Origin: Comamonadaceae bacterium ALPHA2B | GTDB taxonomy: Bacteria > Pseudomonadota > Gammaproteobacteria > Burkholderiales > Burkholderiaceae_C | Assembly: GCA_005503065.1 (NCBI GenBank) | Contig: SCOE01000044.1 | Coordinates: forward strand, 1 to 44,121 | Reading direction: 5' to 3' | DNA length: 44,121 nt | In this document: positions 4,281-24,239 of the stretch, piece after piece | Layout: each line of letters starts with the position of its first letter | How positions within the stretch are numbered: position 1 is the stretch's first letter | Position numbers and translations under genes: made by a program | The notes under the pieces: generated by a model | Told to the model about the DNA's origin: nothing | The model's input: the letters and a program-made list of their open reading frames with translations, nothing else | The model's database searches: none

Positions 4281-5129
4281 TCACACGGCCCAGCGCAGCG
4301 TGTGCGCGGGCGAGTCGGGCCAGTGCGCATCGTTGGCGGGTTCGGCCTCGTCGGCCGCAGGTTTCTGCAGCACCCGGTCGAGGATGCGTTTCTCGATGGC
4401 TGCGAAAGCCGCGTCGCCCTGCGAGCGCGGGCGGGCGAGCGCAATGCGCTCGTCCAGCGCGATGCGGCCGTCCTCGATCAGGATCACGCGGTCGGCCAGG
4501 GCCACGGCTTCCTGCACGTCGTGCGTGACCAGCAGCGCGGTGAAGCGGTGTTGCTGCCACAGCCCCTCGATCAGGCGGTGCATCTCGATGCGGGTGAGCG
4601 CATCCAGCGCGCCCAGCGGCTCGTCGAGCAGCAGCAGCCGCGGGTGGTGCACCAGTGCGCGGGCCAGGGCCACGCGTTGGCGCTGGCCACCCGACAGGCG
4701 CGCCGGCCATTCGTTCTCGCGGTCGGCCAGCCCGACCTGCGCCAGCACCTCGCGCCCGCGCGCCCTCGCCTCGGGCGGCAGGCCCAGCGTGACGTTGTCC
4801 AGCACGCGCTTCCAGGGCAGCAGGCGCGCCTCCTGGAACATGATGCGCGTGTCGTCGTGCAGGCCGTTGACCGGCTTGCCGTCGGTGACGAGCTGGCCGC
4901 CGCTGGCGGCCTCCAGCCCGGCGATCAGGCGCAGCAGCGTGCTCTTGCCGCAGCCGCTGCGGCCGACGATGGCGATGAACTCGCCCGGCGCGATGGCCAG
5001 CTGCGTGTCGCGCAGCACCTCGCGCTCGCCGTAGCGTTTGACCAAGTGGCGGGCCTCCAGCTTCACGCCGCCGGGCTGCGGCAGCCCGGTCGGACCGGAC
5101 CGGAGGGGGGAATCGATGACAGCGCTCAT
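4281..5129 (-). CDS. ssuB: aliphatic sulfonate ABC transporter ATP-binding subunit
   Basis: 282 residues from the chosen start. Walker A is GRSGCGKST (56-64), the Q-loop is [13 protein letters not shown] (97-109), the signature is LSGGQRQR (145-152) and Walker B is LLLLDEP (165-171), followed by the H-loop [10 protein letters not shown]. The Q-loop context is typical of SsuB/TauB-type importers. It powers the SsuC permease at the inner membrane. I chose the ATG at 5129 because CGGAG precedes it and the ABC fold starts soon after. An in-frame ATG at 5219, five bases from the preceding stop, would add 30 residues but has no ribosome site. It follows the third SsuA-type receptor and precedes metY. 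Confidence 0.9.
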
Positions 5130-5224
5130 GGCGTGCGGGCTCCGTGCGGCCTCCCATTCCCAGGCCGAGCACTCGGTGAGGAGCGACAGGGCACGCAGGT
5201 GGCGGGTGGCGGGTTTCATGGCGA

Positions 5225-6190
5225 TCAGGCCGATGGCTTGAACAGGTCGATGTCGAGCGCGTCCACCTTCCTGGGCAGCAGCTTCTCGGCGAAGAAGGCG
5301 TCGGCGATGCGCTGCTGTTCGCCGATCACCTCGCGGGTGGCGGGACGCACGGCGTAGCTGCGGCGCGCGTTGGCCTGCTCGACGATGGCGGCATCCAGGC
5401 CCCAGAAGGGCGCGAGCAGCGCGGCCGCGTCACGCGGGTTCTGCTTGACCCAGCGGCCGGTCTTCTCGAGCTCGGCGTACAGCACGCCCAGCACCTGCGG
5501 CTGCTGGCGCGCGAAACGGGTGCTGGCGAGGTAGTAGCGCTGGTAGGACGCGAGCCCGGTGCCGTCGGCCAGCACGCGGGCGCCCGACTGGCGCTCGGCC
5601 GCCGACAGGAAGGGGTCCCACACCACCCAGGCGTCGATGGCCCCGCGCTCGAAGGCGGCCCGGCCGTCGGCCGGCGTGAGGTAGGCCGGCTCGATGTCCT
5701 TGAAGGACAGTCCGGCCTTCTCCAGCGCGGCCAGCAGCAGGTAGTGCACGCCGGCCGCCTTGGCGAAACCCACCTTGCGGCCCTTCAGGTCGGCCAGGGT
5801 CGTCAGCGGCGAGTCGGCCTTGACCAGGATGGCCTGCGCCGTGGGCGACGGCGCCTCCTGCGCGACGAAGGTGAGCTTGGCGCCCGCGGCTTGTGCGAAC
5901 ACCGGCACCGTGTCGGCCACGTCGGCGCTGACGTCCACGTTGTCGAGGTTGAGTGCCTCCAGCAGCGGCAGGCCGCTGGTGAATTCGTGCCAGCTCGGCT
6001 TGACGCCCAGCGGCGCGAACTGCTTCTCGAGCGTGCCCTGGATCTTGAGCACGGCGATCAGCGTCGAGGACTTCTGGTAGCCGATGCGCACCGTCTGCGC
6101 GGCGGTGCCCTGCGCCCAGGCGGCTCCCGCGGCCAGCGCGGCGGCCATGCCGAGCGCCTCGCGGCGGGTGGGACGAAGGATGTTCTTCAT
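5225..6190 (-). CDS. SsuA-like sulfonate ABC transporter substrate-binding protein (copy 1)
   Basis: 321 residues with an export signal containing RR ([20 protein letters not shown]), so Tat or Sec targeting to the periplasm. The mature part has the NMT1/SsuA pattern: [72 protein letters not shown] and [14 protein letters not shown]. It lies between ssuC and ssuB, 10 bases after ssuC. It is clearly paralogous to the two upstream receptors but differs at positions they share. For example, copies 2 and 3 have VGEAPPIFAQAAGA where this one has [14 protein letters not shown], and they have NKGSNVH where this one has AKAAGVH. A different ligand preference is an inference from that. Confidence 0.88.
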
Positions 6191-6200
6191 GGTGATGTCC

Positions 6201-7031
6201 TCACTTCGCCTGGTAGCCCGGATGCCAGCGCAGCCACCAGTGCTCGAGGGCGCGTGCGAACACGTCGGCCAGCTTGCCCAGCAGCGCGTAGAGGAGGATG
6301 CCGACCAGCACCACGTCGGTCTGCAGGAACTCGCGGGCGTTCATCGTCAGGTAGCCGATGCCGGCCTGCGCCGAGATGGTCTCGGCCACGATCAGGATCA
6401 CCCACATCAGCCCGAGCGAGAAGCGCAGGCCCACCAGGATGGAAGACAGCGCGCCGGGCAGGATCACGTCGCGGTACAGCTGCCAGCGCGTGAGGCCGTA
6501 GGTGCGGCCCATCTCGATGAGCTGCGGGTCGACGTTGCGGATGCCGTGGAAGGTGTTGAGGTAGATCGGGAAGAACACCGACACGCTGATGAGGAACAGC
6601 TTGGCCGTCTCGTCGATGCCGAACCACAGGATCACCAGCGGGATGAGCGCCAGCGCCGGGATGTTGCGCACCATCTGGATGGTGGAATCGAGCAGCGTCT
6701 CGAAGAACTTGACCGAGCCGGTGAGCAGCCCCAGCGCCAGGCCGGCGCCGCCGCCGATGGCCAGGCCCAGCAGTGCACGTCCGGCGCTCACCTTGACGTG
6801 CGTCCACAGCTCGCCCGACACGGTGAGCGACCACGCGGCCTTGACCACGTCGATGGGCGCCGGGAGCACGCGGGTGGAGAGCCAGCCGAGCGACGAGGCG
6901 ATCTGCCAGGCGACGATGAGGCCGATGGGCACGAGCCAGGGCACGAGGCGGTGGGCGACCTGAGCTGCGAAGGCCTTGGCGCCGCCGAGCGAAGGTGTGC
7001 TCAGGGGCACGGGTTGGACTTGTTCGGTCAT
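6201..7031 (-). CDS. ssuC: aliphatic sulfonate ABC transporter permease
   Basis: 276 residues with about six membrane spans. The permease EAA loop, EMGRTYGLTRWQLYRDVILP (about 176-195), contacts the ATPase. The N-terminal span VPWLVPIGLIVAWQIASSLGW and VLPAPIDVVKAAW fit SsuC. It should form the inner-membrane channel with SsuB. It is the only permease in the cluster, so it probably serves all three receptors. A dispersed inverted repeat (7062-7146) separates it from ssuD. It opens with ATG at 7031. Confidence 0.9.
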   Translation of the reverse strand: MTEQVQPVPLSTPSLGGAKAFAAQVAHRLVPWLVPIGLIVAWQIASSLGWLSTRVLPAPIDVVKAAWSLTVSGELWTHVKVSAGRALLGLAIGGGAGLALGLLTGSVKFFETLLDSTIQMVRNIPALALIPLVILWFGIDETAKLFLISVSVFFPIYLNTFHGIRNVDPQLIEMGRTYGLTRWQLYRDVILPGALSSILVGLRFSLGLMWVILIVAETISAQAGIGYLTMNAREFLQTDVVLVGILLYALLGKLADVFARALEHWWLRWHPGYQAK

Positions 7032-7061
7032 GTGGAACGAGATGGAGGTCAGGACAGAAGA

Positions 7062-7146
7062 CCGTTCGGGCTGAGCTTGGCCTGCCCTGAGCTGGTCGAA
7101 GGGTCGAAGCCGGGGTGCAGCGCTTCGACAAGCTCAGCGCGAACGG
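7062..7146. repeat. dispersed inverted repeat between ssuD and ssuC
   Basis: Two 18-base arms match with one mismatch: CCGTTCGGGCTGAGCTTG (7062-7079) and CAAGCTCAGCGCGAACGG (7129-7146). Between them are further partial copies (GAGCTGGTCGAAGGGTCGAAG, TTCGACA). The TTCGACAAGCTCAGC type of element is a common REP-like repeat in proteobacteria. It lies within the ssu operon, where the transcript would fold into a stable stem that could set the ssuD to ssuC expression ratio. Confidence 0.75.
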
Positions 7147-7170
7147 CGGCGTGTGGCCACGGGTGCTTCA

Positions 7171-8349
7171 TCAACTTTGCGCGCGCAGGCGCGACGGTGC
7201 GTCGACGTTGGCGACGACCTCGCCGAAGGGGCCGGTGAGCGCGCCGCCGACCGTTCCACCCAGGCGCTGCTGCACGCGCCGCGGCAGCAGCGGGAACACC
7301 AGCTCGGCGAAGCGGTAGGCCTCCTCCAGGTGCGGGTAGCCCGAGAGGATGAAGGCATCGATGCCCAGGGCTGCGTATTCCTCGATGCGGGCCGCGACCT
7401 GCTCGGGGCTGCCGACCAGCGCCGTGCCGGCGCCGCCGCGCACCAAGCCCACGCCGGCCCACAGGTTCGGGCTGATCTCCAGCGCCTCCCGGCTGCGGTT
7501 GGCGCCACCTCGGTGCAGCGCGGCCATGCGGCGCTGCCCCTCCGAATCCATGTTGGCAAAGGCCGCCTGCGCGCGAATCACCGTGGCGTCGTCGACGCGG
7601 CTGATGAGCGAGTCGGCGGCCTGCCAGGCCTCCTGCTCGGTCTCGCGCACGATCACGTGCAGCCGGATGCCGACTTCCACGCGGCGACCCTTGCCCTGCG
7701 CCCTCGCCCGCACGTCGGCGATCTTCTTGGCCACCTCGTCGGGCGTCTCGCCCCAGGTCAGGTAGCGCTCGACCTGCTCGGCCGCGAGGTCGTGCGCGGC
7801 CTCGGACGAGCCGCCGAACCACACCGGCGGGTGCGGCTTCTGCACCGGCGGGAAGAGCAGCTTCGCGCCCTTGACCTGCAGGTGCCGGCCGTCGTAGTCG
7901 AAGGTCTGGCCTTCGTGGCTGCGCGCGATGATCTCGCGCCAGATGCGGATGAATTCGGCGGACTGCTCGTAGCGCGCCGCGTGGTCGAGGAACACGCCGT
8001 CGCCTTCCAGTTCCGCGCGGTCGCCGCCGGTGACGAGGTTGACCAGCAGCCGCCCGCCCGACAGCCGGTCGAAGGTCGCGGCCATGCGTGCGGCCAGCGC
8101 CGGCTGGTGCAGGCCGGGCCGCACCGCGACCAGGAACTTCAGCCGCTTGGTCGCACCGATCAGGCTGGACGCGACCACCCACGGGTCTTCGCAGGAGCGG
8201 CCGGTGGGGATCAGCACGCCTTCGTAGCCGAGGGTGTCGGCCGCGCCCGCCACCTGCTGCAGGTAGGCCAGGTCGACCGGGCGCGCGCCCTCGGTGCTGC
8301 CGAGGTAGCGGCTGTCGCCGTGGGTGGGAAGAAACCAGAAGATCTGCAT
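7171..8349 (-). CDS. ssuD: FMNH2-dependent alkanesulfonate monooxygenase
   Basis: 392 residues of the bacterial luciferase-like family, matching SsuD over its full length: [16 protein letters not shown] at the start, TGRSCEDPW with C53 (equivalent to Cys54 of E. coli), [10 protein letters not shown] with R229 and H231 (active-site Arg/His region) and [17 protein letters not shown]. It splits alkanesulfonates to aldehyde and sulfite using reduced FMN supplied by SsuE and O2, in the cytosol. The ATG at 8349 has AAGGA about a dozen bases upstream and lies 19 bases after the small ORF. The frame is open further upstream, overlapping that ORF, but family similarity begins at 8349. Confidence 0.94.
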
Positions 8350-8368
8350 GGGGAAAAGTCCTTTGCGC

Positions 8369-8581
8369 TTACCAGGAATGCGCCAGAAAACGCGCGGGGG
8401 ATGCGACGACGCCCGCCGCGCCGAGCCGGCGCAGCGCTCGCACCGGCACATGGCCGTGCGGTGCGCGCCGGGCCACGGCATGGGCCGAGGGCAGCTTGAT
8501 GCCCCACGCCACCACGGTGACACCCAGCACGCGCAGCGCCTGCTGCGCGGGGGAGGAAGGAGCGACGAGACGGGAACTCAT
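8369..8581 (-). CDS. small hypothetical protein inside the ssu operon
   Basis: 70 codons start at an ATG 12 bases after the upstream receptor gene and stop 19 bases before ssuD, so it fits neatly between two operon genes. The protein is basic with one modest hydrophobic stretch ([16 protein letters not shown], about 15-30) and many Arg/His residues. I do not recognise a family. The gapless placement and absence of another explanation for 244 bases favour a real gene. Against it, the second half is Arg/Ala-rich, as many out-of-frame translations of GC-rich DNA are. A decayed gene is also possible. Confidence 0.4.
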
Positions 8582-8593
8582 GCCGCGAATTCC

Positions 8594-9559
8594 TCAGGCC
8601 AGGCCTGGGGCTGCCGCCTCGAGCACGTTGATGCGCCGGGGGATCAGCTTGAGATCGAAGAAGGTGTCCGCGATCTGCTGCTGCTCGCCCAGGATGGCCT
8701 TGGTGATCGGGCCGGTGCCGAACTGCGAGCGCCCGATCGCGGCGTCGACCACCGGCTTGGGCAGCCCCCAGATCTGCGCCAGCTCGCCGGCGAGTTCGCC
8801 GCGGTGGTCCTTGCCCCACTGGTCGACCTTGTCGAGCTCCTCGATCAGCACCTTGATCACGTCGGCGTTCTTCGCTGCGTAGTCGAGCGACGAGAAGTAG
8901 TAGGCGCGGTTGCCCACCACGCCCGAGGCGTCGGCCAGCACCCTGGCGTCGAGCGACTTCTCGGCCGCTGCAAGGAAGGGGTCCCAGATGACCCAGGCGT
9001 CGATCGAGCCCTTCTCGAAGGCGGCGCGCGCATCGGCCGGCGGCAGGAACACCGCGTTCACGTCCGCGTACTGGAGCCCGTGCTTCTGTAGCAGCTTGAC
9101 GAGGAAGTAATGGACGTTGCTGCCCTTGTTGAAGGCGACCTTCTTGCCCTTCAGGTCGGCCACGCTGCGGATGGCCGAGCCCTTGGACACCAGCACGGCT
9201 TCGGACTGCGGGCGCGGCACCGTGGCCGCCACGTAGGCCAGCGGCGCGCCGGCGGCCTGCGCGAAGATGGGCGGCGCCTCGCCGACGTCGCCGAAGTCGA
9301 TCGAGCCGACGTTGAGCGCTTCCAGCTGCACCGGGCCGGCGGTGAACTCGGTCCACTTGACCGACACCTTCAGCGGCGCCAGGCGCTGCTCCAGCGTGCC
9401 GCGGCCCTTGAGCAGGCTGAGGTAGCCCTTCTGGTGGCCGATGCGCAGTTCGCGGGCGGCGCCCTGGGCAAAGGCGGGTGCGCCGGCCACGGCGGGCAGT
9501 GCGAATGCGGCGGCCCCCTTGAGCAGGCCACGGCGGGACAGGGATGTGTGCAAGGTCAT
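8594..9559 (-). CDS. SsuA-like sulfonate ABC transporter substrate-binding protein (copy 2)
   Basis: 321 residues. The Tat-like signal SRRGLLKGAAAFALPAVAG is followed by AFAQG, a likely cleavage region. The mature protein has LRIGHQKGYLSLLKGRGTLE, WTEFTAGPVQLEALNVGSID, LKGKKVAFNKGSNVHYFLVK, DARAAFEKGSIDAWVIWDPF and AILGEQQQIADTFF, the standard aliphatic-sulfonate receptor motifs. It should deliver sulfonates to SsuBC in the periplasm. It lies 24 bases after the third paralogue and upstream of the small ORF and ssuD. It shares more motif identity with copy 3 than with copy 1, suggesting a local duplication. Confidence 0.9.
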   Translation of the reverse strand: MTLHTSLSRRGLLKGAAAFALPAVAGAPAFAQGAARELRIGHQKGYLSLLKGRGTLEQRLAPLKVSVKWTEFTAGPVQLEALNVGSIDFGDVGEAPPIFAQAAGAPLAYVAATVPRPQSEAVLVSKGSAIRSVADLKGKKVAFNKGSNVHYFLVKLLQKHGLQYADVNAVFLPPADARAAFEKGSIDAWVIWDPFLAAAEKSLDARVLADASGVVGNRAYYFSSLDYAAKNADVIKVLIEELDKVDQWGKDHRGELAGELAQIWGLPKPVVDAAIGRSQFGTGPITKAILGEQQQIADTFFDLKLIPRRINVLEAAAPGLA

Positions 9560-9583
9560 GGCGATTTCCCGGTCGGCGTACGC

Positions 9584-10606
9584 TCAGGGCTGGCCCAGCA
9601 ACACGGCGTCGCTCACCTTGATGGCCTTCGGAATGAGCTTGAGCTCGTGGAAGGTGTCGGCGATCTTCTGCTGGTCGGCCGCCACCTCGCGGGTGATGGG
9701 CTTGACGTTGAACTCGTAGCGGCGCAGCGCTAGTTCCACCACGTCCACCGGCAGGCCCTGCAGCGGCGCGATCAGTTCGGCCGCCTGGCGCAGGTTCTTC
9801 TTGAGCCAGATGCCCTGCGTGACCGAGTCGTCGAACAGCGCCTGGATGACCTTCGGGTTCTTCTGCGCGTAGCCGCGCTCGGCCAGGTAGTACTGGTAGT
9901 TGTTGACCACGCCGGGCGTGCCGTCGGCGAGCACGCGCGCGCCGGTCGCCTTCTCGGCGGCGGCCTGGAACGGGTCCCAGATGACCCACGCGTCGACAGC
10001 CTTGCTTTCGAAGGCCGCACGGCCGTCGGCCGGCGCGAGGTACACGGGCTGGATGTCGCCGAGCTTCAGGCCCGCCTTCTCCAGCTGCTTGACGAGCAGG
10101 AAGTGCACGTTGCTGCCCTTGTTGAGCGCGACCTTCTTGCCCTTGAGGTCGGCCACCGAGCGGATCGGCGAGTCCTTGGTGACCAGGATCGCCTCGGCGC
10201 GCGGCGCGGCCGGGTCGAAGCCGATGTAGACGAACCTGGCGCCCGCGGCCTGGGCGAAGATCGGCGGTGCCTCGCCCACGTAGCCGACGTCCACGGCACC
10301 GACGTTCAGGCCCTCGAGCAGTTGCGGTCCGGCCGGGAACTCGACCCACTTCACGCCCACGCCCAGCGGTGCAAGCTGCTTCTCCAGGGTGCCCTGCGCC
10401 TTCTGCAGCACGAACAGGCTGGCCGACTTCTGGTAGCCGATGCGCAGCTCCCTGGCGGCCTGCGCATGCGCCGAGGTGGCGACAAGGAAGGAGCTGACGA
10501 GCGCGATGGCCGCGACCAGCACCACGGCGACGAGGAGATCGACGAAGACCTGCACGCGCGATCGCGGCCGGGCGGCGGGAAAGTGATCGGTGAGGATGGG
10601 GGGCAT
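9584..10606 (-). CDS. SsuA-like sulfonate ABC transporter substrate-binding protein (copy 3)
   Basis: About 340 residues from the ATG at 10606 (another in-frame ATG at 10633 adds nine). The N-terminus is unusual for this family: a 20-residue basic, Pro-rich head, then a long hydrophobic stretch (VDLLVAVVLVAAIALVSSFL) before SAHAQAARELRIGYQK. It may act as a signal peptide or stay as an anchor. The rest is SsuA-like: WVEFPAGPQLLEGLNVGAVD, LKGKKVALNKGSNVHFLLVK, DGRAAFESKAVDAWVIWDPF. It is the first receptor after ssuE, separated by about 120 bases that contain two GC hairpins (10647-10666 and 10706-10724). Confidence 0.88.
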   Translation of the reverse strand: MPPILTDHFPAARPRSRVQVFVDLLVAVVLVAAIALVSSFLVATSAHAQAARELRIGYQKSASLFVLQKAQGTLEKQLAPLGVGVKWVEFPAGPQLLEGLNVGAVDVGYVGEAPPIFAQAAGARFVYIGFDPAAPRAEAILVTKDSPIRSVADLKGKKVALNKGSNVHFLLVKQLEKAGLKLGDIQPVYLAPADGRAAFESKAVDAWVIWDPFQAAAEKATGARVLADGTPGVVNNYQYYLAERGYAQKNPKVIQALFDDSVTQGIWLKKNLRQAAELIAPLQGLPVDVVELALRRYEFNVKPITREVAADQQKIADTFHELKLIPKAIKVSDAVLLGQP

Positions 10607-10705
10607 GGTGGTCCGGTGTGTTTCTTCGGGCAAAGCTCGGCCCGCACCGCGCGGCAGGCCGCGCGGAAGGAATGCGGAAAGGGGTGGGTGGAGGGCGAGA
10701 GGCGT

Positions 10706-10724
10706 GGGCAGCAGCAGGCTGCCC
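10706..10724. repeat. hairpin just after the ssuE stop codon
   Basis: A perfect 7-bp stem, GGGCAGC (10706-10712) and GCTGCCC (10718-10724), with a 5-base loop lies six bases past ssuE. No T-run follows on either strand, so it is more likely an RNA-stability or processing hairpin than a full terminator. A second hairpin, two copies of CCGCGCGG around CAGG (10647-10666), follows in the same gap. Confidence 0.45.
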
Positions 10725-10729
10725 TCGCC

Positions 10730-11317
10730 TCAGACGCTACATCGCACCTGCGAGAAGTGCACCGGCTCGAAGGCGGCCGGTCGCGGGCCCAGCTTCAGAC
10801 CCTCGGCCGCCAGCGTGTCGACGGCTTCGGCCAGCCGGTCGAACAGGTCGACCTGCAACTGGTAGGCCCCTTCGGGCGTGAGCGTGACCTGCGCATCGCT
10901 CGCGTAGACGCCGGGCAGGATGTGGCGCGCGCCCAGCGCGTTGAGCACCGGCCGCAGCGCATAGTCCAGCGCCAGCATGTGGTGCGGGCTGCCGCCCGTG
11001 GCCAGCGGCAGCACGGCCTTGCCGCGCAGCGCGGTCTGCGGCAGCAGATCGAGGAAGACTTTGAGCAGTCCGCTGTAGGCCGCCTTGTAGACCGGCGTGG
11101 CCACGACGATGGCCTGCGCCTTCGCGATGCGGTCGACGGCCAGCTGCACGCTGTGGTGGCTGGTGTCGGCCGCCAGCAGCGCCGCGGCCGGCAGATCGCG
11201 CACGGCCAGCGCGTCGGTGGCAACGCCGCGGCGCGCCAACCGGTCGGCCACGGCGTCGAGCAGGGCGGTGGACCGCGACGGCGAGGACGGGCTACCCGCC
11301 AGCAACAGCACAGACAT
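10730..11317 (-). CDS. ssuE: NADPH-dependent FMN reductase of the sulfonate system
   Basis: 195 residues, the usual length of SsuE. The flavin-phosphate loop is AGSPSSPSRST (7-17), followed by ATPVYKAAYSGLLKVFLDLLPQ in two adjoining motifs, LATGGSPHHMLALDYALRPVL and LGARHILPGVY. It reduces FMN with NAD(P)H and passes FMNH2 to SsuD. It heads the ssu gene string and follows sbp after a gap occupied by repeat copy D, so it may be read from its own promoter or from sbp. Confidence 0.92.
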   Translation of the reverse strand: MSVLLLAGSPSSPSRSTALLDAVADRLARRGVATDALAVRDLPAAALLAADTSHHSVQLAVDRIAKAQAIVVATPVYKAAYSGLLKVFLDLLPQTALRGKAVLPLATGGSPHHMLALDYALRPVLNALGARHILPGVYASDAQVTLTPEGAYQLQVDLFDRLAEAVDTLAAEGLKLGPRPAAFEPVHFSQVRCSV

Positions 11318-16196: not shown

Positions 16197-17222
16197 TCAC
16201 GCCCGGTCGAAGCGCTCCCTGGCCAGCCGCGTGCCTTCCGCCAGCGCCTGCAGCTTGCGCCATGCGACGTCCCGCCCCATCGGGGCCAGTCCGCAGTTCG
16301 TGCAGGGGAACAGGCGCTCCTTCGGCACGAATTCCAGCGCCCGCCCGATGGTGGCCGCCACTTCCTCCGGTGTCTCGACCACGTCGCTGGCCACGTCGAT
16401 CACGCCGACCATGACGTCCTTGCCGGCCAGCAGCTTCATCAGGTCGGGCGGTACATGGGAGTGGATGCACTCCAGGCTGACCTGGTCGATGCTGCTGCGG
16501 GCCAGGGCAGGAAACACGGCTTCGTACTGGCGCCATTCGTCGCCCAGCGTCTGCTTCCAGTCGGTGTTGGCCTTGATGCCGTAGCCGTAGCAGATGTGCA
16601 CCGCGGTCGTGCAGGTCAGCCCCTGGGCCGCGCGTTCGAGCGCCTGCACGCCCCAGTCGGCGGCGTCCTTCATGTAGACATTGAAGGCGGGTTCGTCGAA
16701 CTGGATGATGTCGACGCCGTCGGCCTGCAGCGCCAGCGCTTCCTGGTTGAGCAATTCGGCAAACGCGAAGGCCATCTTCACCTTGTCGCCGTAGAAGCGG
16801 TCGGCCACGGTGTCGACGATGGTCATCGGGCCGGGCAAGGTGAACTTCAGCTTCTTCTTCGTGTGCGCGCGGGCCAGCTGGGCCTCGAAGGCATGCACCC
16901 GGCCCTTCAGGCGCAGCGCCGACACCACCTGCGGCACCATCGCGTCGTAGCGGTTGTCGCGGATGCCCATCTTCACCTTGTGCTCGAAGTCGATGCCATC
17001 GACCTGTTCGAGGAAGCCGTGCACGAAGTGCTGTCGCGATTGCTCGCCGTCGCACACGATGTCCAGGCCGGCGTCCTCCTGGGCCTTGATCCACAGCAGC
17101 GTGGCGTCGGCCTTGGCCTGGCGAAGCGCGTCGCCTTCCGCCCGCCACTGCGGCCAGAGCTTGTTGGTTTCGGCCAGCCAGGCCGGCTTCGGCAGGCTGC
17201 CGGCGATCGAGGTTTCAAACAT
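16197..17222 (-). CDS. mesD: folate-independent core methionine synthase, MesD family
   Basis: 341 residues equal only the catalytic C-terminal half of cobalamin-independent MetE; there is no folate-binding N-terminal half. Zinc and homocysteine motifs are present: DGEQSRQHF (59-67), DEPAF (176-180), H209 and C211 in VHICYGYG, E251 in SLECIHSH and C310 in CTNCGL. It transfers a methyl group to homocysteine in the cytosol. The MesD call rests on the adjacent DUF1852 gene, which is the hallmark of this branch; MesD is reported to need that partner and oxygen, with the methyl donor unknown. The ATG at 17222 has AAAGGA upstream; one seven codons earlier is less likely. Confidence 0.88.
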   Translation of the reverse strand: MFETSIAGSLPKPAWLAETNKLWPQWRAEGDALRQAKADATLLWIKAQEDAGLDIVCDGEQSRQHFVHGFLEQVDGIDFEHKVKMGIRDNRYDAMVPQVVSALRLKGRVHAFEAQLARAHTKKKLKFTLPGPMTIVDTVADRFYGDKVKMAFAFAELLNQEALALQADGVDIIQFDEPAFNVYMKDAADWGVQALERAAQGLTCTTAVHICYGYGIKANTDWKQTLGDEWRQYEAVFPALARSSIDQVSLECIHSHVPPDLMKLLAGKDVMVGVIDVASDVVETPEEVAATIGRALEFVPKERLFPCTNCGLAPMGRDVAWRKLQALAEGTRLARERFDRA

Positions 17223-17342
17223 TCGAGGATTCCTTTCAGGCAAAGATGTGTGGGGCGGGCGAATTCAACGCATGCGCTGTCGCGGCAAGCAAGGGCTCGG
17301 AAGTCGTGCGCAGCGTGAGCTCAGGAGGCGCCACGCGGGCGG

Positions 17343-18326
17343 TCAAGGCGCCACGCTGGCAGCCCACTTCTCAAGCAGGCGCCCGTACGGCTTCATGAAG
17401 TGTTCCTCGGCGAATTTTCCCTGCTTCACGGCCAGTTGGCTGCGCTCCTCCCGGTCGTAGACGATCTGAGTCAAGGAGTAGTCCTGGTTCTTCAGGCTCG
17501 GTCGAAAGAGACTCCCGGCCGCCGAATTGGCGTTGTAGATCTCGGGGCGATAGATCTTCTGGAAGCTTTCCATGGTGCTGATGGTGCCGATCAGTTCGAG
17601 GTCCGAGTAGTCGGCCAGCAGATCCCCGTGGAAGTAGAAGGCCAGCGGTGCCACCCCCCCCGGGGGCATGAAGAAGCGGACCTGCATGCCCATCTTCGCG
17701 AAGTAGCGGTCGGTCGACGAGGGCTCGTCCTGCTCGTACTCGACACCCAGCACCGGGTGGCGGTTGCCGCTGCGCTGGTAGCTTCTGCTGGTGGCCGCGC
17801 TGATGCAGATCACCGGCGCCTTGCCAAGGTGCGCCTTGTAGACGCTCGACTTGACGAACTGCCTGAACAGCTTGCCGTGCAGGTCGCCGAAGTCGTCCGG
17901 CACCCCGAATTCCGACCGGTCCGCGTTGTAGCCCGGAAGCAGGATGCTGAAGTCGTAGTCGCGCACATAGGAGGAGAAATTGTTCCCCGCGATGCCTTCG
18001 ATGCGCCTGTTCTCCCTCCTGTCGTGGATGCAGGTCTTGAGCATCTCGATCAACGGGAATGCCGCAGCGCCGTCCTCGACGTCGATGCCGATCTCGACGG
18101 AGATGATTTCGAGTTCGACGGCGTAGCGATCTCCCATGGGGTTGTCCCAGTGGGCCAGTTCGTTGAAGCGGTTGTCGATCATCCGCAACGTGTTGCGCAG
18201 GTTCTGCTGGCGGCTCTTTCCCCGGGCCAGGTTGGCAAAGTTGGTGGTGATGCGCGTGCCCTCCGATGGCTGGTAGTTCTCGTCGAAACCGATGCGCTGG
18301 AGTTTGAAGCTGAGTTCGTGGTTCAT
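17343..18326 (-). CDS. mesX: DUF1852 protein, MesX partner of MesD
   Basis: 327 residues matching DUF1852 throughout: FKLQRIGFDENYQPSEGTRI, ITTNFANLARGKSRQQNLRN, LRMIDNRFNELAHWDNPMGD, VELEIISVEIGIDV. No signal peptide or membrane span is present, so it is cytosolic. DUF1852 is reported to be required for MesD function and has been suggested to be an oxygenase that supplies the methyl group, but I see no classical oxygenase motif that proves it. Alternative in-frame starts exist upstream (18410), but family similarity starts at MNHELSF. A 120-base gap precedes mesD. It is divergent from metR, with a MetR-like box between them. Confidence 0.88.
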   Translation of the reverse strand: MNHELSFKLQRIGFDENYQPSEGTRITTNFANLARGKSRQQNLRNTLRMIDNRFNELAHWDNPMGDRYAVELEIISVEIGIDVEDGAAAFPLIEMLKTCIHDRRENRRIEGIAGNNFSSYVRDYDFSILLPGYNADRSEFGVPDDFGDLHGKLFRQFVKSSVYKAHLGKAPVICISAATSRSYQRSGNRHPVLGVEYEQDEPSSTDRYFAKMGMQVRFFMPPGGVAPLAFYFHGDLLADYSDLELIGTISTMESFQKIYRPEIYNANSAAGSLFRPSLKNQDYSLTQIVYDREERSQLAVKQGKFAEEHFMKPYGRLLEKWAASVAP

Positions 18327-18408: not shown

Positions 18409-18430
18409 ATTCATCCATGAATTCTGCTCA
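18409..18430. promoter_or_regulatory. MetR-type operator between mesX and metR
   Basis: TGAATTCTGCTCA (18418-18430) matches the E. coli MetR consensus TGAA-N5-TTCA at seven of eight fixed positions and lies seven bases before the metR start. It overlaps a perfect inverted repeat, ATTCAT-CC-ATGAAT (18409-18422). A wider pair, CATGAAGT (18385-18392) and ACTTCATG (18432-18439, running into the metR start codon), brackets it. Autoregulation of metR and control of mesX are the natural readings. Confidence 0.55.
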
Positions 18431-18436
18431 CACTTC

Positions 18437-19375
18437 ATGCTGGAGCGCATCCACCTCGCCGTCGTCCGTGAAGTCGAACGTCAAGGTTCGCTGACCGCCG
18501 CGGCAGCGGTGCTGCACGTCACGCAGTCCGCACTGAGCCACAGCATGCGCAAGCTGGAGCAGCAGCTGGGTGCCGACATCTGGCTGCGTGACGGCCGCAG
18601 CCTGCGGCTCACGCAGGCGGGCCAGTACCTGCTGGCGGTGGCCAACCGCGTGATCCCGCAGCTCGACCTGGCGCAGGATCGGCTGCTACAGTTCGCCCAG
18701 GGCGAACGCGGCACGCTGCGCATCGGCATGGAATGCCACCCCTGCTACCAGTGGCTGCTCAAGGTCGTGTCGCCCTACCTCGCCCAGTGGCCCGACGTCG
18801 ACGTGGACGTCAAGCAGAAATTCCAGTTTGGCGGCATCGGCGCGCTCTTCGGCTACGAGATCGACCTGCTGGTCACGCCAGACCCGCTCTTCAAGCCCGG
18901 CCTCGCCTTCGAGCCGGTGTTCGACTACGAGCAGGTGCTCGTGGTGGCACGCGGCCACGCGCTGGCCGACGCTGCCCACGTCAAGCCCAGGGACCTGGCC
19001 CGCGAGGTGCTGGTGACCTATCCGGTCGAGACCGACCGGCTCGACATCTACAACCAGTTCCTCATGCCCGCTGGCGTCACGCCGAAGCGGCACAAGACCA
19101 TCGAGACCACGGACATCATGGTGCAGATGGTGGCCAGCGGCCGCGGCGTGGCCGCCCTGCCCCGCTGGCTGGTCGAGGAGTACGCGGGCCGGATGGATGT
19201 CGTGGCGGTGCGGCTCGGCGCCCGCGGCATCCACAAGCACATCTACCTGGGCGCCCGCGAGTCCGAGACGCACATCGACTACCTCAGGGCCTTCGTCGAG
19301 CTGGCGCGGCGCGGGCCGGCGCTGCCCCCACGAGGCGGCTCCGACGCCCCGGGACAAAGGGCGAAGAAACCGTAG
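18437..19375 (+). CDS. metR: LysR-family regulator of methionine genes, MetR type
   Basis: 312 residues. The N-terminal winged HTH holds REVERQGSLTAAAAVLHVTQ and SALSHSMRKLEQQLG. The effector domain matches MetR at diagnostic places: IGMECHPCYQWLLKVV (E. coli IAIECHSCIQWL), VFDYEQVLVVARGHALAD, LVTYPVETDRLDIYNQFL and GRGVAALPRWLVEEY. MetR uses homocysteine as co-inducer. Here it is divergent from mesX-mesD, so it probably controls this alternative methionine synthase. Its last residues (GQRAKKP) and stop codon lie inside the hairpin element at 19353-19476, so its C-terminus may have been altered by that element. Confidence 0.92.
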   Translation: MLERIHLAVVREVERQGSLTAAAAVLHVTQSALSHSMRKLEQQLGADIWLRDGRSLRLTQAGQYLLAVANRVIPQLDLAQDRLLQFAQGERGTLRIGMECHPCYQWLLKVVSPYLAQWPDVDVDVKQKFQFGGIGALFGYEIDLLVTPDPLFKPGLAFEPVFDYEQVLVVARGHALADAAHVKPRDLAREVLVTYPVETDRLDIYNQFLMPAGVTPKRHKTIETTDIMVQMVASGRGVAALPRWLVEEYAGRMDVVAVRLGARGIHKHIYLGARESETHIDYLRAFVELARRGPALPPRGGSDAPGQRAKKP

Positions 19376-19476
19376 CGAGCGCGCCGAGGTCGCGCCGAGG
19401 ACCGGAGCCGTGCTCTGTACGGTGGGGACCGCAGGTGCGAGATCGGGGCGCGCAGTAGGTTGATTTGTCCTTTGTC
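19353..19476. repeat. 124-bp hairpin element at the junction of metR and the prpB-like gene
   Basis: The ends are perfect 8-bp inverted repeats, GACAAAGG (19353-19360) and CCTTTGTC (19469-19476). Inside, further imperfect pairs continue inwards: AACC with GGTT, GCGCGCC with GGCGCGC, CGCGCCGAGGAC with GACCGCAGGTGCG, and CCGT with ACGG at the tip. The whole element can fold into one long stem. It carries the metR stop codon and reaches the last base or two of the convergent lyase gene. It could be a MITE-like insertion, a shared terminator, or both. Confidence 0.6.
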
Positions 19477-20335
19477 AGCTGTAGCGCTTCTCCAGCGCAT
19501 CCCACTCCGGCTTGCCCACCAGCCGCTGCCGCTCGGCGAAGGGCGTGACCAGGCCGCTGGACTCCTGCACTTCCTGTTCGTCGCGCAGCACGGTCAGCGC
19601 CTTCTGCATGCCGGCCACCGCGCCCTGCAGGGCCGCATTGGCGTACAGCACGATCCCGTAGCCCAGCTCGCCCAGCTGCTTCGCATTGAAGATCGGCGTG
19701 CGCCCGCCGATGACCATGTTCATGAGCTGCGGCTTGGCCAGGCGCTGCGGCAGGGCACGCACCTCGTCTTCTCTTGTCACCGCCTCGACGAAAAGGATGT
19801 CGGCACCGGCCTCGGCGAACTTCTGCGCGCGCTCGACGGCGGCCTCGAAGCCCTGCGTGGCGCAGGCATCGGTGCGGGCCAGGATGAGCAGGTCCGGGTC
19901 CCGGCGCGCGTCGACGGCTGCCTTGATCTTGCTCACCGCCTCGTCGGTCGGGATGACGTCCTTGCCAGAGAAATGGCCGCAGCGCTTGGGCGCGACCTGG
20001 TCCTCCAGCTGGATGCAGTCGGCACCGGCGCGCTCCAGCGTGCGCACCGTGTGGCGCACGTTCAGCGCATTGCCGAAGCCCGTGTCGGCATCGACGATCA
20101 GCGGCAGGCCCACGGCGTCGCGGATGCGCGCCGTGTGGTCGGCGATCTCGGCCAGGCCCATGAAGCCCTGGTCGGGCATGCCGAACCACATGTTGGTCAC
20201 GCCGGCGCCGGTGACGTAGATGGCAGAGTAGCCCAGGTCTTCGATGACGCGGGCCGACAGGGCGTTGAAGGCGCCCGGCACGATGACGCCGCGGCGCGCT
20301 TCGACGAGGGCCTTGAGTTGCTGGCGGGTGGACAT
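19475..20335 (-). CDS. PrpB-like lyase of the isocitrate lyase / PEP mutase superfamily
   Basis: 286 residues with a complete lyase active site: VDADTGFGN (81-89, metal/substrate loop), LEDQVAPKRCGH (110-121) with the gating cysteine C119, LARTDA and a C-terminal cap. In this superfamily KRCGH marks 2-methylisocitrate lyases. It ends the prpC-acnD-prpF operon, 26 bases after prpF, where the pathway needs a lyase splitting 2-methylisocitrate to pyruvate and succinate. However, its start (MSTRQQLKALVEARRGVIVPGAFNALSA) and FGMPDQGFMG are closer to oxaloacetate decarboxylase or dimethylmalate lyase-like members than to classical PrpB. The function is therefore inferred mainly from context. Confidence 0.75.
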   Translation of the reverse strand: MSTRQQLKALVEARRGVIVPGAFNALSARVIEDLGYSAIYVTGAGVTNMWFGMPDQGFMGLAEIADHTARIRDAVGLPLIVDADTGFGNALNVRHTVRTLERAGADCIQLEDQVAPKRCGHFSGKDVIPTDEAVSKIKAAVDARRDPDLLILARTDACATQGFEAAVERAQKFAEAGADILFVEAVTREDEVRALPQRLAKPQLMNMVIGGRTPIFNAKQLGELGYGIVLYANAALQGAVAGMQKALTVLRDEQEVQESSGLVTPFAERQRLVGKPEWDALEKRYS

Positions 20336-20361
20336 GGTTCGCTCTCGGGAAAGAAGGGTTC

Positions 20362-21567
20362 TCAGAAACAGTCGCCGGGCACGCGCACGAAGCCTTCCAT
20401 CAGCACGCGCGCGCTGCGGCTCATGAGGGCCTTGGTCACCGTCCACTGCCCGCCGACCTGCACGGCCTCGGCGCCGACGCGCAGCGTGCCGGAAGGATGG
20501 CCGAAGCGCACCGAGGTGCGCTCGCCGCCGCCGGCCGCGAGGTTGACGAGGGTACCCGGTATGGCGGCGGCCACGCCGATCGCGACCGCGGCGGTGCCCA
20601 TCATCGCGTGGTGCAACTGCCCCATCGACAGCGCGCGCACCAGCAGGTCCACATCGGCCGCCTGCACCGGCTTGCCGCTCGACGCGATGTAATCCTGCGG
20701 CGGCGCGACGAAGGCGATCTTGGGCGTGTGCTGGCGCGTCGCCGCGTCGGCCACCTCGCGGATGAGGCCCATCTTCACGGCACCCCCGGCGCGGATGGCC
20801 TCGAAGCGCGCCAGGGCCGCCTGGTCGCCGTTGACGGCCGGCTGCAGCTCCGTGCCGGCGTAGCCCAGGTCGCGGGCGTTCAGAAAGATCGTCGGGATGC
20901 CGGCGTTGATGAGCGTGGCGTCGAAGCTGCCGATGCCCGGCACGTCGAGCGTGTCGACCACGTTCCCTGTCGGGAACATCGCGCCGCCCCCTTCGCCCTC
21001 ACCGCCCTCCTCCGCCGGGTCCATGAACTCCAGCGGCACCTCGGCCGCGGGAAAGGTCACGCCGTCGAGTTCGAAGTCGCCCGTCTCCTGCACCGCGCCG
21101 TTCGTGATCGGCACATGGGCCACGATGGTCTTGCCGATGTTCGCCTGCCAGACGCGCACGGTGCAGATGCCGTCGCGCGGGATGCGGTCCGCCGGCACCA
21201 GCCCGTTCGCGATCGCAAACGGACCGACGGCGGCCGAGAGATTGCCGCAGTTGCCGGACCAGTCCACGAAGGCCTTGTCGATCGCGACCTGGCCGAAGAG
21301 GTAGTCCACGTCGTGCCCAGGCCGTTCGCTGGCCGAGAGGATGACGGCCTTGCTGGTGCTCGAGGTCGCGCCGCCCATGCCGTCGGTCTGCTTGCCGTAG
21401 GGATCGGGGCTGCCGATCACGCGCAGCAGCAGCCGGTCGCGCGCCGCGCCGGGCCGGCGGGCGGCCTCGGGCAGGTCCTCCAGGCGGAAGAAGACGCCCT
21501 TGCTGGTGCCGCCGCGCATGTAGGTGGCGCGAATGCGAATCTGCGGGGCGAAGTTGCCGACGGTCAT
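20362..21567 (-). CDS. prpF: 2-methylaconitate cis-trans isomerase
   Basis: 401 residues of the PrpF family (diaminopimelate epimerase-like fold). Typical motifs are RIRATYMRGGTSKGVFFR at the start, DPYGKQTDGMGGATSSTSKAV, DWSGNCGNLSAAVGPFAI and MGQLHHAMMGTAAVAIG. It isomerises the 2-methylaconitate made by AcnD so that the cycle proceeds to 2-methylisocitrate; PrpF and AcnD always work as a pair. It starts 32 bases after acnD ends, with the gap occupied by repeat copy B. Confidence 0.95.
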   Translation of the reverse strand: MTVGNFAPQIRIRATYMRGGTSKGVFFRLEDLPEAARRPGAARDRLLLRVIGSPDPYGKQTDGMGGATSSTSKAVILSASERPGHDVDYLFGQVAIDKAFVDWSGNCGNLSAAVGPFAIANGLVPADRIPRDGICTVRVWQANIGKTIVAHVPITNGAVQETGDFELDGVTFPAAEVPLEFMDPAEEGGEGEGGGAMFPTGNVVDTLDVPGIGSFDATLINAGIPTIFLNARDLGYAGTELQPAVNGDQAALARFEAIRAGGAVKMGLIREVADAATRQHTPKIAFVAPPQDYIASSGKPVQAADVDLLVRALSMGQLHHAMMGTAAVAIGVAAAIPGTLVNLAAGGGERTSVRFGHPSGTLRVGAEAVQVGGQWTVTKALMSRSARVLMEGFVRVPGDCF

Positions 21568-21631
21568 TTTGCTATCGATTTCATAGCTGCTCGCGCCCGT
21601 CAGACGGGCGCCCCAGCCCTTTTTGATTCAA
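21568..21631 (+). repeat. dispersed two-hairpin repeat, copy B, running into acnD
   Basis: The unit reads TTTGCTATCGATTTCATAGC, CTGCTCGCGCCCGTCAGACG, GGCGCC...GATTCAA. The second hairpin is a near-perfect stem (GCGCCCGTC / GACGGGCGC around A). It starts one base before the prpF ATG region and reaches into acnD, so that the acnD stop codon and its last ten or so residues (LESKRAGAPV) are repeat sequence. Confidence 0.75.
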
Positions 21632-24239
21632 GAAAATCCTGGGCGAAGCGCTGCAGCACGCCGCCCGCCTCGTACACCGACACCTCCTCGGCCGTGTCGA
21701 GGCGGCAGGTCACCGGCACCCGCAACACGTCCCCGCTGCGCCGATGCACGACCAGCACGAGCTCGGCACCGGGTGTGCGCGCGCCCTCCACATCGTAGGT
21801 CTCGGTGCCGTCCAGCTGCAGCGTGAGGCGATTGGTGCCGGGCCGGAACTCCAGCGGCAGCACGCCCATGCCGATGAGGTTGGTGCGGTGGATGCGTTCG
21901 AAGCCCTCCGCCACCACCGTTTCCACGCCGGCCAGGCGCACGCCCTTGGCGGCCCAGTCGCGGCTGGAGCCCTGGCCGTAGTCGGCGCCGGCGATGACGA
22001 TGAGCGGCTGTCGCCGGTCCAGGTAGGTCTCGATGGCTTCCCACATGCGCACGACCCGGCCCTCGGGCTCGATGCGCGCCAGCGATCCCTTCTTCACCAC
22101 GCCGTCCACCACCGCCATCTCGTTCACGAGCTGCGGGTTGGCGAAGGTCGCGCGCATGGCCGTGAGGTGGTCGCCGCGGTGCGTGGCGTAGGAGTTGAAG
22201 TCCTCCTCCGGCAGGCCCATGCGGTGCAGGTATTCGCCGGCGGCCGAGTCCATGAGGATCGCGTTCGACGGCGACAGGTGATCGGTCGTGATGTTGTCCG
22301 GCAGGATCGCCAGCGGGCGCATGCCGCGCAGGGAGCGCGGCGTGGCGGCCAGCGCGCCCACGCCCTCGGTGTCCCAGTACGGCGGCCGGCGGATGTAGGT
22401 GGACCGGGGACGCCAGTCGTACTGCGGCGCCACGACCTCGCCGTCGTCGGCGCGGATGGCGAACATCGGCTCGTACACGGCGCGGAACTGCGAAGGCTTG
22501 ACGCTGGCCGCGACGATGGCGTCGATCTCCTCGTCGCTCGGCCAGAGGTCTTTGAGGCGCACCGCTCGGCCGTCGCCATCGATGCCCAGCACGTCCTGCT
22601 CGATGTCGAAGCGCACCGTGCCCGCGATGGCGTAGGCCACCACCAGCGGCGGCGACGCGAGGAACGCCTGCTTCGCATAGGGGTGGATGCGCCCGTCGAA
22701 GTTGCGATTGCCCGAGAGCACCGCCGTGGCGTACAGGTCGCGCCGGGCGATCTCCTGCTGGATCGCCGGGTCGAGCGCCCCGCTCATGCCGTTGCAGGTG
22801 GTGCAGGCGAAGCCGACGATGCCGAAGCCCAACTGCTCCAGCTCGCCCAGCAGCTTCGCTTCGCGCAGGTACAGCTCCACCGCGCGGGAGCCCGGCGCCA
22901 GCGAGCTCTTGACCCAGGGCTTGCGCACCAGCCCGCGCGCGTTGGCATTGCGGGCCAGCAGCGCCGCCGCGATCACGTTGCGCGGGTTGCTGGTGTTGGT
23001 GCAGCTGGTGATGGCGGCAATGATCACCGCGCCGTCGGGCATGTGGCCCTGCGCCTCGTCGGCCTGGCCGGCTGCGAGCTTCGCGCTGTCGGCGATCCCG
23101 CGCTCGGCCAGCGCGCCGACCGGCAGGCGGCGGTGCGGGTTCGAGGGGCCGGCCATGTTGCGCACCACGGTGGCGAGGTCGAAGTGCAGCACGCGCTCGT
23201 ACTGCGCCGACACCAAGTCGTCGGCCCACAAGCCCGCCGCCTTCGCATAGGTCTCGACCAGCTGCACCTGCTCGTCGCTGCGGCCGGTGAGCCTGAGATA
23301 GTCGAGCGTCTGCCCGTCGATGGAGAAGAGCGCCGCCGTGGCGCCGTACTCGGGGCACATGTTGGAAATGGTGGCGCGGTCGCCGATCGACAGGCTGCGC
23401 GCGCCTTCACCGAAGAACTCGACATACGCGCCGACCACCTTCTGCGCCCGCAGGAATTCGGTGAGCGCGAGCACGATGTCGGTGGCCGTGATGCCCGGCG
23501 GGCGACGGCCCGTGAGTTCCACCCCCACGATGTCGGGCAGGCGCATCCAGGACGCGCGGCCCAGCATCACGTTCTCGGCCTCCAGCCCGCCCACGCCCAC
23601 GGCGATCACGCCCAGCGCGTCGACGTGCGGCGTGTGGCTGTCGGTGCCCACGCAGGTGTCGGGGAAGGCCACGCCCTCGCTCACGGCGACGACGGGCGAC
23701 ATCTTCTCCAGGTTGATCTGGTGCATGATCCCGTTGCCCGCGGGGATCACGTCGACGTTCGCGAAGGCCTTCTTCGTCCACTCGATGAAGTGGAAGCGGT
23801 CCTCGTTGCGGCGGTCCTCGATCGCGCGGTTCTTCGCGAAGGCGTCGGGGTCGAAGCCGCCGCACTCCACCGCCAGCGAATGGTCGACGATGAGCTGCAC
23901 CGGCACCACCGGATTGACGGCCGCGGGGTCGCCCCCCTCCTTCGCGATCGCGTCGCGCAGGCCGGCCAGGTCGACCAGCGCGGTCTGGCCCAGGATGTCG
24001 TGGCACACCACGCGCACCGGGTACCAGGGAAAGTCCAGGTCGCGGCGGCGCTCGACGATCTGGCGCAGGTAGTCCTGAAGGTGCGCCTGGTCGGCGCGGC
24101 GCACGAGGTTCTCGGCGTGCACCCGCGCGGTGTAGGGTAGGCCGGCCCAGGCGCCGGGCTGCAAGGCCTCCACGGCGGCGCGGGCATCGAAGTAGTCCAG
24201 GCCGGTGCCTGGCAGGGATTGGCGGTAGCTGAGGTTCAT
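21600..24239 (-). CDS. acnD: Fe/S-dependent 2-methylisocitrate dehydratase
   Basis: 879 residues of the aconitase A/IRP fold. The [4Fe-4S] ligands are C413 in AAITSCTNTSNP and C479/C482 in ACTTCNGMSG. Also seen are SHTPHVDALGVIAVGVGGLEAE in parts and the C-terminal swivel domain (ITTDHLSPSN, GADYGQGSSRDWAAKG, RIHRTNLIGMGVLPLEF). Dependence on PrpF identifies it as AcnD rather than a housekeeping aconitase. It dehydrates 2-methylcitrate. It follows prpC by 48 bases. The C-terminal LESKRAGAPV derives from an intergenic repeat (copy B), so the original end may have differed. Confidence 0.95.
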   Translation of the reverse strand: MNLSYRQSLPGTGLDYFDARAAVEALQPGAWAGLPYTARVHAENLVRRADQAHLQDYLRQIVERRRDLDFPWYPVRVVCHDILGQTALVDLAGLRDAIAKEGGDPAAVNPVVPVQLIVDHSLAVECGGFDPDAFAKNRAIEDRRNEDRFHFIEWTKKAFANVDVIPAGNGIMHQINLEKMSPVVAVSEGVAFPDTCVGTDSHTPHVDALGVIAVGVGGLEAENVMLGRASWMRLPDIVGVELTGRRPPGITATDIVLALTEFLRAQKVVGAYVEFFGEGARSLSIGDRATISNMCPEYGATAALFSIDGQTLDYLRLTGRSDEQVQLVETYAKAAGLWADDLVSAQYERVLHFDLATVVRNMAGPSNPHRRLPVGALAERGIADSAKLAAGQADEAQGHMPDGAVIIAAITSCTNTSNPRNVIAAALLARNANARGLVRKPWVKSSLAPGSRAVELYLREAKLLGELEQLGFGIVGFACTTCNGMSGALDPAIQQEIARRDLYATAVLSGNRNFDGRIHPYAKQAFLASPPLVVAYAIAGTVRFDIEQDVLGIDGDGRAVRLKDLWPSDEEIDAIVAASVKPSQFRAVYEPMFAIRADDGEVVAPQYDWRPRSTYIRRPPYWDTEGVGALAATPRSLRGMRPLAILPDNITTDHLSPSNAILMDSAAGEYLHRMGLPEEDFNSYATHRGDHLTAMRATFANPQLVNEMAVVDGVVKKGSLARIEPEGRVVRMWEAIETYLDRRQPLIVIAGADYGQGSSRDWAAKGVRLAGVETVVAEGFERIHRTNLIGMGVLPLEFRPGTNRLTLQLDGTETYDVEGARTPGAELVLVVHRRSGDVLRVPVTCRLDTAEEVSVYEAGGVLQRFAQDFLESKRAGAPV

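Follow-up and report, generated by a model that had tools for sequence, protein, structure and literature searches.

The closest described systems are the MesD/MesX methionine synthases, in which MesD depends on MesX and oxygen and requires neither MetF nor cobalamin, as mutant fitness and complementation of E. coli have shown (PMC7857596, Price 2021). In that study mesD, mesX or both from Sphingomonas koreensis were tried in E. coli strains deleted for metE or metF alone, without cobalamin and in the presence or absence of O2, so that much of the complementation proposed in the first-pass annotation of the present locus is already published with S. koreensis genes. MesX was predicted to supply methyl groups through oxidation of its substrate, a flavin reductase was often found near the two genes, the methyl donor was left unidentified in 2021, and it was left possible that a methyl group is held covalently or that respiration or peroxide is involved (PMC7857596). 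The main text of that paper contains none of the words Acidovorax, Comamona-, Variovorax, Burkholderi- and luciferase. In Acinetobacter baumannii, B12 was reported to repress the DUF1852 gene by a factor of about 300 (log2 -8.3; PMC12892962), and N2O was tolerated by two strains with MesD homologues (PMC13059711); the accessible text of PMC12478193 and PMC12366255 does not mention MesD. Among the open-licence PMC papers listed, and in the text accessible, we found none that names the methyl donor, whether in 2021 or later.

The window, by which we mean the whole stretch of 44,121 nucleotides analysed here from Comamonadaceae bacterium ALPHA2B (genome of 6.0 Mb in 91 contigs), carries a mesXD pair that is a member of this known, published system (Table 1). 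The first-pass annotation had assigned the genes to MesD and MesX with oxygen dependence and an unidentified methyl donor, all of which agrees with what PMC7857596 reports for relatives. On balance, we consider it probable that the locus encodes a MesX/MesD methionine synthase pair in which MesX forms the donor with flavin and O2, under MetR-like control and as a B12-free route beside MetH.

Table 1 Features of the mesXD region and of the ssu cluster in the window.
Feature	Position	Strand	Remarks
ssuE-type NADPH:FMN reductase	10730..11317	-	In the window's ssu cluster; TIGR03567 221.4 bits, cut-off 164
mesD, MetE catalytic half only	16197..17222	-	341 aa; Zn ligands H209, C211, E251, C310; homocysteine residues S9, E60, D176
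mesX, PF08908/DUF1852, 'putative oxygenase MesX'	17343..18326	-	327 aa; 5' of mesD, same strand
MetR-type box TGAATTCTGCTCA	18418..18430	.	One mismatch to TGAAN5TTCA; just 5' of metR start, about 92 bp from mesX start
metR-like LysR regulator	18437..19375	+	Divergent from mesX; best NCBIfam model MetR NF011950
Isocitrate lyase/PEP mutase family gene	19475..20446	-	Adjoins metR; prpB score below cut-off

The two genes lie on one strand in the order mesX then mesD with a gap of 120 bp. The mesD reading frame spans 16197-17243 (-), and the ATG that matches the earlier residue numbering is at 17222. MesD passes the NCBIfam 'methionine synthase' model NF006589/PRK09121 (584.8 bits, cut-off 392) and contains PF01717 as its sole Pfam domain (residues 3-327), and the N-terminal folate half of MetE (PF08267) gave no match in the genome at E 0.001, which bears out the earlier description of MesD as a core MetE lacking that half. 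The zinc ligands, earlier noted as intact, and the homocysteine residues were invariant in an alignment of 35 rows, and the same seven residues were retained in all 40 stand-alone MesD copies of a wider set as well as in 132 MesX-linked rows, duplicates counted, bar one row gapped at C310. The three homocysteine residues are those named in PMC7857596, matched through an alignment with 3RPD, the solved structure of a MesD protein, to which the window's MesD scores 410.7 bits over residues 3-336. Given this score and an identity of 54-58% with MesD of the other type, comparison of the sequences suggests that the window's MesD would fall under the published phmmer threshold of 560 bits to ACIAD3523.

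MesX is full length over PF08908 (residues 1-323, 580.4 bits against a curated cut-off of 25), which is its only Pfam match; it did not match the luciferase family. An alignment of 86 rows contains 92 invariant positions, including H150, H190, C174, D123, D125 and E196. Comparison of two MesX models with solved folds returned no convincing match, including no confident flavin-binding fold, and no MesX relative was found by sequence in the PDB. MesX also matched 209 plasmid records, and mesXD cassettes are plasmid-borne in L133, L134, L142 and L143, with IS1071/Tn3 transposases nearby in L133 and L143 and integrases in L133 and L142. Two records labelled 'Acinetobacter phage' contain MesX; none was confirmed in viral contigs.

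All 122 MesX loci tallied contain MesD, in 121 of them on the strand of MesX and no more than 300 nt away; in the exception, L086, msuE stands between mesX and mesD. The family genome of L086-L088 has this intact mesX-msuE-mesD set in an unusual order and a broken second mesXD copy elsewhere. In 118 MesX loci the identity of MesD to the window's protein is either 80-100% (the window type), with values below 87% coming from pieces of one broken copy only, or 54-58% (the Acinetobacter type). In a quick MesD tree (91 rows, one support value, search shown not to be optimal) the Acinetobacter type has a support of 100 and the MesX-linked window-type copies group in a single clade (SH-aLRT 99). The MesX tree (86 rows), also a quick tree with one support value and with three long branches (L086, L136 and L137) placed unsurely, requires three changes of MesD type, and two Stenotrophomonas rows with the other MesD type lie inside an otherwise window-type MesX clade (support 95). 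We read this pattern as a probable exchange of MesD under a resident MesX.

MesX had been called the obligate neighbour of MesD. This holds from the side of MesX, as every MesX locus tallied contains MesD, but not from the side of the window's MesD type. Among 150 sampled genomes of the window's family, 45 had a MesD match at E 1e-30, of which 43 were of the window type (74-100%), one was of the Acinetobacter type and one was only a 40% paralogue. MesX was present in five, namely four of the 43 and the Acinetobacter-type genome, and a genome-wide search found none in the other 39 of the 43, which include five one-contig genomes (G506, G673, G733, G749 and G780). Similarly, MesX was not seen in 40 stand-alone loci (these 39 and plasmid L135), some of which have short flanks (L185, L192). 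For the window's MesD subfamily, dependence on MesX is an assumption carried over from relatives.

These findings raise the possibility, which we regard as somewhat unlikely, that this subfamily works without MesX, in most relatives at least, with another donor, and that the pairing is a recombined cassette in which MesX adds a second, aerobic donor. The MesX-less genomes with their intact catalytic residues, and the single linked MesD clade set against three changes of type on the MesX tree, fit such a history. So do S5 and T220 of MesD, which are kept in both MesX-linked groups and mostly lost in stand-alone copies, with no position showing the reverse pattern. However, the branches of the linked clade are short, and this by itself could yield the residue asymmetry through unequal divergence of the groups. 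MetH is present in 42 of the 43 window-type genomes, being absent only from G736 (85% complete), and is retained in 38 of the 39 with stand-alone MesD, so that the stand-alone protein need not make methionine. An AU test gave no rejection of a single clade of stand-alone copies (p 0.90), so either state may have come first. Our initial placement of MesX-linked MesD inside the stand-alone copies, taken from the quick tree, was withdrawn, as the AU test gave a better tree with the stand-alone copies together.

The flavin/O2 reading of MesX that we favour draws on the genes beside it. A reductase of one of two families lies nearby on the same strand in 68 of the 122 MesX loci: an MsuE-type FMN reductase in 44 (37 window-type and 7 Acinetobacter-type) and a PF01613-type reductase in 24, all Acinetobacter-type. 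Neither is in view in 54 (10 window-type and 44 Acinetobacter-type), 25 of which have flank enough to show one. Restricted to the 85 loci with enough flank, the counts were 33 window-type and 3 Acinetobacter-type for MsuE, 24 for PF01613, and 7 and 18 for neither. MsuE was checked in L006, L052 and L086, where the TIGR03566 cut-off was passed and PF03358 matched, and PF01613 in one example (L061); the remaining reductases were assigned from tblastn hits, of which some for the PF01613 type reached no more than 24-27% identity. The two families differ in fold, and the presence of both beside the same MesX is poorly explained by plain shared ancestry. This arrangement lends support to a putative reduced-flavin/O2 role for MesX.

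In the window, neither type of reductase lies beside mesXD. The genome has no MsuE above the TIGR03566 cut-off, the only matches being the window's SsuE and a further weak one, both below it; ten PF01613 genes lie elsewhere in the genome. As no reductase adjoins mesXD, reduced FMN may come from another locus, SsuE, encoded about 5 kb away, being a possible source. The ssuE gene belongs to an ssu (sulfonate use) cluster at 4281-11317 (-) that also contains ABC transporter genes and genes for three substrate-binding proteins; a luciferase-like monooxygenase of the cluster is encoded at 7171-8520.

MsuE and SsuE reductases usually serve sulfonate monooxygenases. Together with the ssu cluster in the window and the 54 loci with no reductase in view, this agrees with an explanation that we judge unlikely, namely that MesX is a metal-dependent (non-haem) oxygenase or oxidase without flavin, with its invariant His, Cys, Asp and Glu residues as potential metal ligands, and that the adjoining reductases serve co-regulated sulfur-starvation enzymes. 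Two reductase families adjoining mesX in different lineages argue against it, as does the lack of an annotated sulfonate oxygenase within about 6 kb in three msuE plasmid loci (L133, L134 and L143; gene tables incomplete).

The same reductase neighbours, and the occurrence of one MesX type with two MesD types that share no more than about 57% identity, which does not favour a tight protein-protein methyl hand-over, make it decidedly unlikely that MesX is a methyl-carrying protein or chaperone of MesD rather than an oxygenase, with oxygen needed indirectly through respiration or peroxide, although no enzyme fold was recognised in the two models and PMC7857596 allows for a covalent methyl, respiration and peroxide.

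Other genes recur around stand-alone MesD. Of the 40 loci, 11 have a luciferase-like flavin monooxygenase (MsnO8 family, TIGR03558) upstream, at a distance of up to 530 nt in 9 of them; 11 have a 2OG-Fe dioxygenase (PF10014) downstream, no more than 2 kb away in 8 of them; and 9 have a cupin close by. All of these genes are on the strand of MesD. The corresponding MesX-linked counts are 0, 0 and 0 of 42 window-type loci and 1, 0 and 0 of 45 Acinetobacter-type loci. For the luciferase-like neighbour this gives a Fisher p of 0.0002, a value that ignores relatedness and the choice of the query for its recurrence in stand-alone loci. Genes for an AMP-ligase (9), an ion channel (5) and a zinc-dehydrogenase (10) recur in the same 40 loci. 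We rejected the luciferase-like neighbour as a proven substitute for MesX, since unrelated genes recur too and eroded synteny can explain the pattern, which we treat as a lead. It is very doubtful that MesD has several interchangeable O2-using partners, MesX being one of them, with the MsnO8-family or 2OG-Fe neighbour supplying the methyl donor in MesX-less relatives; if it were so, the donor would be a small diffusible product rather than a methyl bound to MesX, and the two systems would have met in the window's cassette.

The regulatory part of the preferred reading concerns the divergent metR. The gene reported earlier is present; its product scores 232.9 bits to NF011950, below the cut-off of 382, hence 'MetR-like'. 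A divergent metR adjoins 42 of 51 window-type loci. We take the MetR box consensus to be TGAAN5TTCA. The MetR box of the first-pass annotation does not stand out in the window alone, where matches occur at chance (2 found against a mean of 3.0 in shuffles), but its position is conserved: among 46 other loci with a metR more than 70% identical, 42 have a box with at most one mismatch (14 exact) that begins 16-19 nt ahead of metR, as counted without a shuffle control for this set. Conservation supports a putative MetR box site between mesX and metR.

Adjacent to metR, the isocitrate lyase/PEP mutase gene lies together with prpF and acnD (19475-24239, -). A close relative of the isocitrate lyase/PEP mutase gene lies near mesXD in 12 of the 122 other loci; in L016 it is on the other side of mesXD, and in plasmid L133 it lies close to a Tn3 transposase and prpF-like sequence is retained. 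A protein with a methylenetetrahydrofolate reductase C-terminal domain is encoded near mesX on an Acinetobacter lwoffii plasmid (L137 2073-3464) and has relatives near mesXD in L050, L077, L084 and L114. The window contains no Rfam match over gathering scores. Its genome encodes one MetH activation domain, one MetF and, as its second PF01717 protein, a MetE-like one of PRK06520 type, whose gene comes straight after a 2Fe-2S oxidoreductase gene that contains a DmmA-like stretch (L002 386-2583).

In the mechanism that we propose, MesX, probably with reduced FMN and O2, would oxidise a common metabolite to yield the methyl donor. MesD, whose residues are in place for a reaction known from relatives, would bind homocysteine as a zinc thiolate and then methylate it. 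The MetR-like protein would act through the conserved intergenic box, and the pair may complement MetH as a B12-free route under aerobic conditions with little B12. New here are the reductase tally, the finding that this MesD subfamily often lacks MesX, and the conserved position of the MetR box. The two families of reductase neighbours direct MesX biochemistry towards reduced flavin and O2, and a MesD subfamily that exists with and without MesX offers a natural comparison and control for finding the methyl donor.

Among known systems, the two-component sulfonate monooxygenases (MsuD/MsuE and SsuD/SsuE) resemble MesX loci in having the same FMN reductase family beside an oxygen-using gene; MesX differs from them in being a PF08908 protein outside the luciferase family, with no fold match. 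The core synthases MesA, MesB and MesC share with the window's MesD a MetE catalytic domain without the folate half but, unlike it, come from anaerobes and are corrinoid-linked (PMC7857596). The window's mesXD is set apart from most window-type loci by the absence of an adjoining MsuE-type reductase, and its MesD shares 54-58% identity with the other type of MesD, including the Acinetobacter copies compared. With the pairs of Acinetobacter baylyi (ACIAD3523/3524) and Sphingomonas koreensis it shares the same gene pair, the core MetE without the folate half, the zinc and homocysteine residues and the PF08908 partner.
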